A stretch of 62,820 nt of DNA from Roseobacter sp. Lineage in GTDB: Bacteria; Pseudomonadota; Alphaproteobacteria; Rhodobacterales; Rhodobacteraceae. The stretch spans positions 1-62,820 of the forward strand of contig JADFAE010000011.1 of assembly GCA_015665415.1 (NCBI GenBank). The letters run 5' to 3'. The notes below the pieces were generated by a model, which was not told the DNA's origin, did no database searches, and was given only the letters and a program-made list of their open reading frames with translations. Position numbers and translations under genes: made by a program. Of this stretch, positions 18,139 through 25,422 are shown in pieces; the first letter of the stretch is position 1, and each line of letters begins with the position of its first letter.

Positions 18139-18169
18139 TGTGATCACAGGTTTTTGACGTGTGATCACA
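18139..18169 (-). promoter_or_regulatory. Paired TGTGATCACA operators upstream of sucC
   Basis: Two perfect 10-bp palindromes TGTGATCACA occupy 18139-18148 and 18160-18169, 21 bp centre to centre, about 112 bp upstream of the sucC start. The sdhC promoter has the same pair with the same 21-bp spacing. Two helical turns between sites suggests cooperative binding of a dimeric regulator on one DNA face. The regulator is unknown. Confidence 0.7.
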
Positions 18170-18246
18170 GGAAGCACAAATTGGCCCTCTTGCAGGAACG
18201 AATCAATTGAACCACTATGGGTTTAATAAAAATTGAGGCATAAGCC

Positions 18247-19284
18247 ATGAGCATGCAATATTCCAAGGCGGCCCCCGCAACATGGGGCGTCGTCTGTACC
18301 GCGCGTGAGACGCCAGAATTGCTGGCCGCTTTTGCCGCCCATCACGCGGCCCTCGGCGCGAGCAGGATCTATCTCTATCTTGATGAGCCCTCACCCCGGG
18401 CGCTGGAGCTGTTGGCGGTGATCCCGGCGGTGGATGTGATCCTCTGCGATCGCAGCTATTGGGAGCGGGTCAATGGCGGTGTGCGCCCCCGCCGACAAGA
18501 ACGCCGCCAGGTCATCAATGCCCATGATGCCTTTCAGCGCTGCGAGGTCGATTGGCTGCTGCATATCGATGCGGATGAATTTCTGTCGCCGTCTCGCGAT
18601 CTCAGTCTTGAGCTGGCGCAGGTGCCCGAGGGAATAGATTACCTGCATCTGGAGATGCGAGAGCGGGTATTTACCGGCGCAGCCCCGGCTGAGACGATTT
18701 TTGACGGAGCTTTCCGGGTGCCCTTCAACCGGGAGCCCCGAGCCACCCGCCTGTTGTTTGGTCCGGGGGCGGGATTCACCGATGGTGGGTTTTCCGGTCA
18801 GGTCTCGGGCAAAAGCATCGTGCGGGTGCAACAGGGGCAACTTCTGATGGGCATTCATCGTCCACGGGTGCCAACCTCGATGCCGCGCGAGCCCTTGCTG
18901 CATTTGCAGTGCCAATCGGCGGTGGTGCTGCATTTCGAAGGTCTGACTCCGGCCCATTGGATGTCCAAGATCACCCGCTACAGTCGGCGATCCCGCTACA
19001 CCGAGGGGGATCTGCTGGGCGAACATCAAAAGCGGCAGATCGACTATTTAGCGCGCCACAACTGGAGCTTCGAGGCGACGCATAAGCTGCACAATTTGCT
19101 AAAATGCGTGGAGGGGGAGGCCGAAGCGCGCCTGCGTGGCCTTGGCCTGTTGCAGAAACCGGCAGTCACCCCCAGCTATGGTCTGCGGGTCTATGGTCTC
19201 AGCCCAGAAGTTGATCTGTCAATCGAGCGTTGCGATCAGGGCGTGGCCAGTTGGTTGCCGGGCATTTTGAGTTTTGCCGCCTGA
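18247..19284 (+). CDS. Family 2-type glycosyltransferase
   Basis: A 345-residue protein of the Glyco_tranf_2_4 type (GT2/GT92-like). The N-terminal part has a nucleotide-sugar strand (TWGVVCTARETPELLAAF) and the metal-binding DAD at 108-110 in LLHIDADEFLSP. A later VLHFEGLTPAHWMSKITRYS block matches the family. It would add sugars to a surface polymer or lipid. It stands alone between the divergent sucC promoter and a shared terminator with mdh, so the acceptor is unknown. Confidence 0.8.
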   Translation: MSMQYSKAAPATWGVVCTARETPELLAAFAAHHAALGASRIYLYLDEPSPRALELLAVIPAVDVILCDRSYWERVNGGVRPRRQERRQVINAHDAFQRCEVDWLLHIDADEFLSPSRDLSLELAQVPEGIDYLHLEMRERVFTGAAPAETIFDGAFRVPFNREPRATRLLFGPGAGFTDGGFSGQVSGKSIVRVQQGQLLMGIHRPRVPTSMPREPLLHLQCQSAVVLHFEGLTPAHWMSKITRYSRRSRYTEGDLLGEHQKRQIDYLARHNWSFEATHKLHNLLKCVEGEAEARLRGLGLLQKPAVTPSYGLRVYGLSPEVDLSIERCDQGVASWLPGILSFAA

Positions 19285-19316
19285 GGTCGCAGCAGCAACA
19301 GGCAAACCCTGAACGA

Positions 19317-19347
19317 AAAAAGCCGCCGGTTAGTCCGGCGGCTTTTT
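19317..19347. terminator. Bidirectional terminator between the glycosyltransferase and mdh
   Basis: A 13-bp perfect stem (AAAAAGCCGCCGG at 19317-19329, CCGGCGGCTTTTT at 19335-19347) with a 5-nt loop. A and T tracts flank both sides, so it can end transcription from both convergent genes. Confidence 0.9.
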
Positions 19348-19368
19348 CAATTCCTGTGGCGCGAAGGC

Positions 19369-20331
19369 TTAGTTCAGCGAGCCGTCGATGGCCTTGCAGG
19401 CCTCGACCAGACCCTGAACCGCTGCAACCGAGGTGTCGAACATCTCTTGCTCGTCTTTGTTGAGCTTGATGTTGACGATTTTCTCGATGCCGCCGGCGCC
19501 GATCACAGTGGGTACGCCGACATACATGTCGTTGACGCCGAGGTCACCGTCGCAATAGGCAGCACAGGGCAGCACGCGCTTTTGGTCTTTGAGGTAGGCT
19601 TCGGCCATTTCGATCGCCGAAGCGGCAGGTGCGTAGAACGCGGAGCCGGTTTTCAGCAGGCCAACGATTTCGGCGCCACCGTCACGGGTGCGCTGCACCA
19701 TGGCGTCCAGCTTCTCTTGCGTGGTCCAGCCCATGTCGATCAGATCGGGGAGCGGGATACCGGCAACGGTGGAATAGCGCACCGACGGCACCATGGTGTC
19801 GCCGTGGCCACCCAGCACAAAGGCGGTGACATCGCGCATGGAGACGTTGAATTCTTCGGCCAGGAAATGGCGGAAACGAGCGGAGTCTAGAACGCCAGCC
19901 ATGCCGCAGACTTTGTTTGCAGGCAGGCCCGAGAATTTCTGCAGGGCCCAGACCATCGCGTCCAGCGGGTTGGTGATGCAGATGACAAAGGCGTTGGGCG
20001 CGTGGGCCGCAATGCCTTCGCCAACGGATTTCATCACTTTCAAGTTGATACCCAGCAGGTCATCGCGGCTCATGCCGGGCTTGCGGGCCACACCTGCGGT
20101 GACGATGCAGACATCTGCGTCGGCAATGGCGGCATAGTCGCTGGAGCCGGACATGTCGGCGTCGATTTTTTCGACAGGGCCGGATTGGGCGATGTCGAGT
20201 GCCTTGCCCTGGGGCAGGCCGTCAGCGATGTCAAAAAGAACAACGTCGCCAAGTTCTTTGAGGGCTGCGAGATGAGCGAGCGTGCCGCCGATGTTGCCTG
20301 CGCCGATAAGGGCGATCTTGGATCTGGCCAT
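19369..20331 (-). CDS. mdh: Malate dehydrogenase
   Basis: A 320-residue NAD-dependent malate dehydrogenase of the LDH-like type that is usual in alphaproteobacteria. It has the Rossmann motif GAGNIGG (11-17), the substrate-binding [12 protein letters not shown] loop, [11 protein letters not shown], and the catalytic [11 protein letters not shown] histidine. It oxidises malate to oxaloacetate. It has its own promoter region and ends at a bidirectional terminator. A LacI-type palindrome lies 115 bp upstream of the start. Confidence 0.96.
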
Positions 20332-20445
20332 GGGGATTTCTCTCCGGTCCGGTTGAAATTGGGGGGATGCCTACGCCCTCCCGCGCGCCCGCGCAAGTGT
20401 TCTGCGCTGCGGCATATCAGATGAATCGCTGGGGATGATGCGGCT

Positions 20446-24524: not shown

Positions 24525-24530
24525 TCACAA
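24521..24530. promoter_or_regulatory. Single GTGATCACAA palindrome at the mch stop
   Basis: A TGATCA palindrome core (GTGATCAC) overlaps the mch stop codon. It resembles the sucC and sdhC sites but has no partner 21 bp away, so it may be chance. Confidence 0.25.
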
Positions 24531-24556
24531 ACGCGGTTTGTTACTTCAGCCCAGGG

Positions 24557-24583
24557 CCCTGCGACATTCGCGGGGTCTTTTCA
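24557..24583 (+). terminator. Probable terminator after mch
   Basis: CCCTGCG (24557-24563) pairs with CGCGGGG (24569-24575) with one mismatch and a 5-nt loop, followed by TCTTTTC. A smaller ACAAAC/GTTTGT hairpin (24527-24541) precedes it. Confidence 0.55.
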
Positions 24584-24639
24584 TTTGCGACGGGCAAAAA
24601 GGGGTGACGGCGCGGGAACTTCCGTCCTACTGTTCCACC

Positions 24640-25383
24640 ATGAGGTTCCAAGCCCGTCTCTTTGCTGGACTGATCTCCCTGCTGCCCTTGCCGGGGTTTG
24701 CCTGCGATCTGGCGTTGGTGTTGGCGGTGGATGTTTCTGGCTCGGTGGATGCCACCGAATACCGTATTCAGATGGACGGGCTGGCGCAGGGGCTGCGCGA
24801 CGGTGTAGTCTCCGAGGCGCTGGTGCGGGCCCAGGCCCAGGTGACCCTGATCCAGTGGTCAGGGCAGTCGCGCCAGGAGGTCTCGATCCCCTGGACCGGA
24901 ATCCGCGATTTTGAAGATGTCGAGACCCTGGCGCAGGCGATCGAAACCGCGCCGCGCCCCTGGCGCAACTATTCCACGGCGCTGGGGGAGGCCCTGGTGC
25001 TGGGACTGACGGAACTCGCCCGGGGGCCGGATTGCAAACGTCGGGTGATCGATCTGTCCGGGGACGGCTATTCCAACGAGGGTGTTGAGCCGGAGGCAGT
25101 CAGGCCCCTGTTGGCGCGCGCCGATGTGACCGTCAATGCCATCGCCATCGAGCAAAGCGAGCCCGAGCTGACCAGCTATTTCTACGAGCAGGTGATCCGG
25201 GGTGAAGGTGCCTTTGTCGAGACCGCCATCGATTTTCGCGACTACCCCGAGAAAATCCGCCGCAAACTGGTGCGGGAAGTGGCGCGCAAAACCGCCGGGA
25301 CACTGTCGCCTTTGGACGGCAAGACGGCGGATTTGCAAAAATTTGCACAGGGGAGGCCTGATTCTGCAAAAGATTTTCAATAG
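24640..25383 (+). CDS. DUF1194 (von Willebrand factor A-like) secreted protein
   Basis: A 247-residue protein with a signal peptide (MRFQARLFAGLISLLPLPGFA) ending just before CDLALVLAVDVSGSVD. That DVSGS is the metal-ion-dependent adhesion site (DxSxS) of a vWA fold, and VIDLSGDGYSNEG supplies a later conserved loop. This is the DUF1194 pattern. Its partner and role are unknown. The start at 24640 opens the signal peptide; upstream in-frame codons cross a terminator. Confidence 0.85.
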   Translation: MRFQARLFAGLISLLPLPGFACDLALVLAVDVSGSVDATEYRIQMDGLAQGLRDGVVSEALVRAQAQVTLIQWSGQSRQEVSIPWTGIRDFEDVETLAQAIETAPRPWRNYSTALGEALVLGLTELARGPDCKRRVIDLSGDGYSNEGVEPEAVRPLLARADVTVNAIAIEQSEPELTSYFYEQVIRGEGAFVETAIDFRDYPEKIRRKLVREVARKTAGTLSPLDGKTADLQKFAQGRPDSAKDFQ

Positions 25384-25391
25384 GCAGATTT

Positions 25392-25422
25392 TGTGATCAC
25401 TAGTCTGTGGACTGTGATCACG
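25392..25422 (+). promoter_or_regulatory. Paired TGTGATCAC operators upstream of sdhC
   Basis: TGTGATCACT (25392-25401) and TGTGATCACG (25413-25422) are 21 bp apart, as upstream of sucC. Both cores are TGATCA palindromes. They lie 114 bp upstream of the sdhC start, nearly the same distance as at sucC (about 112 bp). A 15-bp TGTTTTT-G-AAAAACA palindrome follows at 25430-25444. Confidence 0.7.

Follow-up and report, generated by a model that had tools for sequence, protein, structure and literature searches.

Upstream of sucC (succinyl-CoA synthetase) and of sdhC (succinate dehydrogenase), the Roseobacter sp. DNA analysed here (62,820 nucleotides of contig JADFAE010000011.1, referred to as the window) carries matching pairs of palindromes, which raises the question of which regulator reads these sites and how it would act from them. 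The initial annotation had proposed one regulator for both operons, binding on one face of the DNA, without giving it a name. Both pairs are very probably double operators of AkgR, an activator of the suc and sdh operons that would be encoded in this genome as P0001. The proposal of a common regulator is strongly borne out by the motif, the predicted targets, the co-occurrence of sites and regulator and the presence of an ortholog, and a likely regulator can now be named for an unexplained motif.

The palindromes reported earlier were confirmed by a scan of the window, which returned seven strand matches of TGTGATCAC at five places (18139/18140, 18160/18161, 25392, 25413 and a lone 24521), as against 0.62 expected; none of 100 dinucleotide shuffles reached seven. 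Four of the five places constitute two pairs, each spaced exactly 21 base pairs (bp), and the proximal GTGATCAC ends 112 bp from the start codon of sucC and 114 bp from that of sdhC, as had been stated. The names of both genes hold as well, given the ATP-grasp_2/Ligase_CoA and Sdh_cyt domains of their products. At sucC both sites are perfect TGTGATCACA, at sdhC the distal TGTGATCACT is combined with the proximal TGTGATCACG, and the half-sites abut without a spacer in all four. A search of the 4.47-Mb genome for other pairs of the same spacing, suggested at the outset, found none beyond the sucC and sdhC places (pattern TGTGATCAC-N10..14-TGTGATCAC, i.e. spacings of 19-23 bp only). Single TGTGATCAC sites gave 48 strand matches genome-wide, about the rate predicted from the window shuffles, and are thus not enriched. 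Same-strand pairs at exactly 21 bp number two against about 0.0003 expected from the genome density, in agreement with the earlier judgement that a chance origin is very unlikely.

Conservation in relatives had been set beforehand as the test of this arrangement, and the pairs are indeed retained. All 12 genus genomes, the present one among them, have pairs, mostly two each, as do 266 of the 295 genomes of the family sample (one per genus, with 19-23 bp spacing allowed), most often two per genome; in a sample of the class, a pair is present in all four family members (own included) and in two of 285 other genomes. The sequence separating the two sites varies in most of the 12 genus genomes, and in other genera the pair recurs at the same genes though most spacers differ. 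Among 72 family loci with a pair, which are part of the pair listing (five listed pairs, from G125, G135 and G162, were left out), 37 lie at sucC and 33 at sdhC, with one between mdh and sucA and one before fumC; spacing at the 70 sucC and sdhC loci is 21 bp in 65 and 20 bp in five. The fumC case is a third 21-bp pair of genome G053 (L097 1501-1529), located 124 bp before the start of a class II fumarase gene (Lyase_1 and FumaraseC_C domains), a further step of the tricarboxylic acid cycle. Furthermore, triple operators with exact 21-bp steps are found at sucC in three genera (G146, G202, G296; L333, L338, L367), the extra site being the distal one. A general degenerate third operator at +/-21 bp is not claimed, since offset 21 ranks first on both sides across the 70 loci at just 2.2 and 2.5 standard deviations above the all-offset mean. 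More than two pairs are present in 11 genomes, where the extras include the fumC pair and the triplets; the extra pair of G249 lies inside a coding frame, and those of G170, G200, G241, G274, G276 and G287 are left uninterpreted (other spacing, unclear target or sequence left out). The pair of G609, a member of the class outside the family, has no suc or sdh gene beside it. In another family, a 21-bp pair of G554 (L322 992-1020) precedes a GntR/FCD gene that is 31% identical to AkgR and adjoins TonB-receptor-like and SDR-like genes (named by eye).

The name of the regulator comes from Rhodobacter sphaeroides, where GTGATCAC is given among the binding sites of the activator AkgR in the available part of PMC6365646. 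The GntR regulator RSP_0981 of this species is predicted to control RSP_0967-6 (succinyl-CoA synthetase) and also RSP_0974-6 (sdh) and RSP_0965-62 (2-oxoglutarate dehydrogenase), according to the available part of PMC4344238. As far as these partial sources go, motif, protein family and targets agree between the descriptions of AkgR and of RSP_0981. The two are presumably the same protein. In the present genome, P0001 (G000:C21:22033-22695) is the only one of 16 FCD-type GntR loci with the exact motif at its own start (locus L040); it carries a GntR domain (PF00392, 48.1 bits, cut-off 27) and an FCD domain (PF07729, 61.4 bits, cut-off 24.3) and is encoded on contig C21, with suc and sdh on contig C20. 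Cereibacter johrii, presumably a close relative of R. sphaeroides, has an ortholog 80% identical to P0001, and one small open reading frame separates the gene of this ortholog from sdhB, a position that fits the number RSP_0981 soon after RSP_0974-6. Pairs 21 bp apart are also present upstream of both sdhC and sucC in C. johrii. Judged by similarity and gene position, P0001 is likely the AkgR ortholog. Three marks of an AkgR regulon, namely a GTGATCAC operator in the promoter region, suc and sdh as targets and a likely AkgR ortholog in the genome, are found here, and the placement of the pairs at the promoters would be compatible with activation of these targets. An IclR-type regulator was considered first (seven IclR matches) and was dropped because the relative of AkgR (PMC6365646) and RSP_0981 (PMC4344238) are both given as GntR-type in the available text of these papers; P0001 is GntR-type as well.

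Apart from the motif and the targets, the distribution of the regulator follows that of the sites. In the 295 genomes, ortholog and pair are present together in 260, the ortholog only in eight, the pair only in six and neither in 21 (Fisher 1.5e-20, a probability that serves only as a guide because the genomes are related and kinship is ignored). The ortholog call (E <= 1e-50) was drawn after seeing the values and falls in a gap between 1.6e-57 and 1.5e-46. A degenerate pair is kept in two of the eight ortholog-only genomes (G051 at sucC; G302 at sucC and sdhC), and near matches with three mismatches occur in eight of the 21 genomes with neither, none of them beside suc or sdh.

The position of the pairs relative to the promoters bears on how they would work. 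At sdhC, relatives share GTGAC(A/T) and, after 16 bp, a TAnnAA consensus; 24 of 33 sdhC loci have the former 57-60 bp past the proximal operator, even though the distance to the start codon ranges from 107 to 191 bp across loci. A pair with GTGACW at 44-74 bp was found in 263 of 394 genomes, and the 150 matches listed comprise 130 at 57-61 bp (gene identity checked for a part), seven at 47-50 bp, ten at 69-71 bp and, off phase, one each at 44, 55 and 66 bp. All 17 at 47-50 and 69-71 bp are upstream of sdhC (L088 and L167 among them), and the element of two further sdhC loci stands 78 and 79 bp away. The three off-phase matches were rejected as sdhC cases and dropped before the count that follows: those of G244 and G157 (L169) are sucC loci, and that of G230, whose own sdhC element is at 79 bp, faces away from sdhC. 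Each of the 19 verified sdhC exceptions lies at most 2 bp from a whole-turn shift off the main position, where 34% would be expected to do so (Rayleigh R 0.88 at 10.5 bp, a value as high in 0 of 20000 random sets), and no half-turn shift was seen among these 19. The count covers loci with GTGAC[A/T] in range (28 of 33 sdhC loci); of the other five, two have ATGACT at 58 or TTGACT at 48 bp. On a tree of SdhC the exceptions are scattered, with 19 state changes, an upper figure for independent shifts because the tree uses SdhC only, few of its branches are supported (16 of 50 well) and the sample is enriched in exceptions. At sucC, a T-rich -35-like element stands at 47 bp, one turn nearer to the pair than at sdhC; three neighbouring positions there show T in 32, 31 and 26 of the 37 loci. 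The fumC gene of G053 has TTGCAT with a possible TATCAC -10 at 58 bp, and another promoter-like TTGACG at 10 bp.

In addition to the pairs, a single GTGATCAC site precedes the start of akgR itself in all 30 of the best-scoring orthologs (L105-L134, own included), followed after 0-10 bp, mostly 8-10, by an in-frame ATG. In 27 of the 30, TTGAC stands 12-15 bp (mostly 13) upstream of the site, the start codons being about 21-31 bp behind TTGAC. From this geometry we infer that the operator overlaps the expected -10, being placed downstream of the -35 and ahead of the start codon, and that akgR may be transcribed into a leaderless or almost leaderless message. In three named genomes that were checked, the site is present in two (L298, L299) and absent from C. 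johrii; it is common, not universal.

The arrangement suggests a mechanism in which one AkgR dimer would occupy each palindrome and the 21-bp spacing (two helical turns) would bring both dimers onto the same face of the DNA. From there they would act on RNA polymerase at promoters whose -35 lies downstream by about 47 bp at sucC and by about 58 bp at sdhC, one turn apart, and the suc and sdh operons would be switched on together. Same-face placement, as the initial annotation had supposed, is argued for by the conservation of the pair spacing at 20-21 bp and, with greater force, by the observation that promoter and pair at sdhC are displaced relative to each other by whole turns only; cooperative binding to the paired sites is plausible. 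At akgR, one operator between the -35 and the expected -10 would allow AkgR to repress its own gene. That AkgR binds the sites in this species, makes contacts from one face, cooperates, represses its own gene and senses a signal is inferred. On balance, we favour a phase-locked double (sometimes triple) operator common to the family, in which activation would need two palindromes two turns apart, the sdhC distance would shift by whole turns only and the single operator of akgR would autorepress.

Several points weigh against the assignment of the pairs to AkgR. The equation of P0001 with AkgR derives from C. johrii and the locus numbers, not from R. sphaeroides itself, and it is C. johrii that has no operator in front of akgR. 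A pair is present without a strong ortholog in G030, G107, G125, G267, G275 and G284 (three of these genomes are less than 80% complete), and six of the eight genomes with an ortholog and no exact pair have no recognisable pair at suc or sdh. The co-occurrence table covers P0001 orthologs alone among the GntR genes, and the core promoter of sucC is weakly defined.

Of the other explanations, the one that fares best, though improbable, is that AkgR binds these sites and mainly represses, or has a dual, effector-dependent role. Repressors are frequent among GntR/FCD proteins, and the single akgR site, between a -35-like TTGAC and the start codon, occupies the position of a repressor. The pairs, however, stand about 47 or 57-61 bp upstream of the -35, too far for a simple repressor to obstruct the polymerase; those of sdhC keep helical phase with the -35, and AkgR is called an activator in the available part of PMC6365646. 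It is still less probable that the pairs are read here by a different regulator with the specificity of AkgR, for instance a GntR paralog. The genome has 16 FCD matches, a relative of AkgR in another family (31% identical, G554) has a pair in front of it, and GTGATCAC is common to other GntR proteins, among them a Pseudomonas relative 32% identical to AkgR (PMC6365646, available part). Nevertheless, the exact motif stands at the own start of P0001 only (L040) among the 16 FCD loci, and it is the ortholog of P0001 that co-occurs with the pairs. Sites of the CRP/FNR type, which the TGTGA...TCACA half-sites resemble, are hardly credible, as the CRP operator is TGTGA-N6-TCACA, with half-sites six bases apart, and the four window sites have no spacer at all. 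Chance, or a general GATC-rich repeat, would suit the singles with their roughly expected genome-wide rate and can practically be dismissed for pairs that occur at 19-23 bp in only two places of the genome and recur beside those genes in further genera.

Table 1. Features of the window that bear on the predicted AkgR control of sucC and sdhC
Feature	Position	Strand	Basis
sucC, succinyl-CoA synthetase beta subunit	16834..18027	-	ATP-grasp_2 and Ligase_CoA domains
Candidate -35 of sucC promoter, TTTAAA, 47 bp from proximal operator	18087..18092	-	inferred; most of the 37 family loci are T-rich at this distance
Proximal AkgR-type operator of sucC (predicted), TGTGATCACA	18139..18148	-	motif match
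Distal AkgR-type operator of sucC (predicted), TGTGATCACA, 21 bp from proximal	18160..18169	-	motif match
Lone AGTGATCACA, overlaps mch stop codon	24520..24529	+	not conserved at that place
Distal AkgR-type operator of sdhC (predicted), TGTGATCACT	25392..25401	+	motif match
Proximal AkgR-type operator of sdhC (predicted), TGTGATCACG, 21 bp from distal	25413..25422	+	motif match
-35-like element of sdhC promoter, GTGACA, 58 bp from proximal operator	25480..25485	+	conserved in relatives, whole-turn register
-10-like element of sdhC promoter, TAAAAC, 16-bp spacer	25502..25507	+	TAnnAA consensus there in 36 distinct sequences
sdhC, succinate dehydrogenase membrane subunit, first gene of sdh operon	25536..25919	+	Sdh_cyt domain

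The lone site at 24520, which has no partner, as had been noted, consists of the mch stop codon plus TCACA (AAG TGA TCACA). It has no counterpart at that place in the seven other aligned loci of the genus, which have TAA or TAG; the GTGATCAC of L007, L014 and L020 sits elsewhere, these three sequences being nearly identical there. A role as an additional operator, for DUF1194 or for mch, was rejected, and, because of the overlap with the mch stop and the absence in aligned relatives, the copy is probably accidental and outside the system.

The surroundings of the two pairs show further peculiarities. A glycosyltransferase gene (Glyco_tranf_2_4, 18247-19284, plus strand) lies between mdh and sucC, divergent from the latter, with 77 bp between its start and the sucC pair. 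No such gene intervenes in many relatives, where the end of mdh is a few hundred bp upstream of sucC; L009 has a homolog at the equivalent place, and L084 has a weak one. A methyltransferase-like and a small open reading frame (named by eye) occupy 15455-16826, between sucD and sucC, unlike C. johrii, where sucD and sucC are adjacent. Near sdhC, TTTGCAAAAATTTGCA is located at 25332-25347, at the end of the DUF1194 gene and 44 bp before the pair; L020 and L008 have an identical or similar sequence there, L017 a degenerate one. The element resembles what we take to be the RamB motif. Furthermore, 10 of the 41 distinct sdhC leaders have a CAAA(A/T)AACC-type element (25445-25456 in the window, for example) that starts 21-24 bp past the proximal operator.

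The regulator, the motif and the target genes are already known from R. sphaeroides, and the window genome is a further case; the phase-locked architecture is the added result. Paired AkgR operators and their phasing were not met in the literature searched, which left out the original AkgR publication (Imam et al. 2015, mBio); within the same literature, neither were the cross-genus conservation, the triplets, the fumC pair or the akgR site. With AkgR as the probable reader of the pairs, AkgR-type control of suc and sdh, so far studied in one species, would hold in most genera of the family that were searched. Comparison of genera serves as a natural series of spacing mutants, in which whole-turn shifts at sdhC are kept, and this restriction to whole turns predicts a face-dependent contact of the activator with RNA polymerase. 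If the reading is true, the same protein would activate or repress according to the number and the place of its operators.

The AkgR regulon of R. sphaeroides resembles the present system in the core motif GTGATCAC (PMC6365646) and the GntR-type regulator, and suc and sdh are the predicted targets of RSP_0981 as they are the operons here (PMC4344238), both in the available parts of these papers. Beside this known regulon, the double-operator geometry, the promoter phasing and the akgR site are described here. RSP_1663 of R. sphaeroides is presumably CceR, a regulator of central carbon metabolism. This LacI-type protein is also predicted to control sdh, and the window sites, TGTGATCAC(A/T/G), do not match the motif predicted for CceR, [A/G/T]GTT-N6-8-AAC[A/C/T] (PMC4344238, available part). 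The stretch from the sdhC pair to the -35 gave no support for a LacI/CceR-like element, since the loose pattern that matched 12 of 41 distinct sdhC leaders also matched 13 of 37 sucC leaders. PS417_07240 of Pseudomonas simiae, a GntR-like protein of deoxyribonate oxidation to which AkgR is 32% identical, has the same palindrome GTGATCAC before its own start codon (-47 to -40); it differs from the present system in its pathway, and one site, with no pair, is mentioned in the available part of the source (PMC6365646). Judged by the promoter elements, the operators of sdhC would lie at about -97/-118. Class I activators such as CRP bind a site upstream of the -35 at distances that are effective in whole helical turns. 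Compared with these, the present system has two, sometimes three, stacked operators located further upstream.

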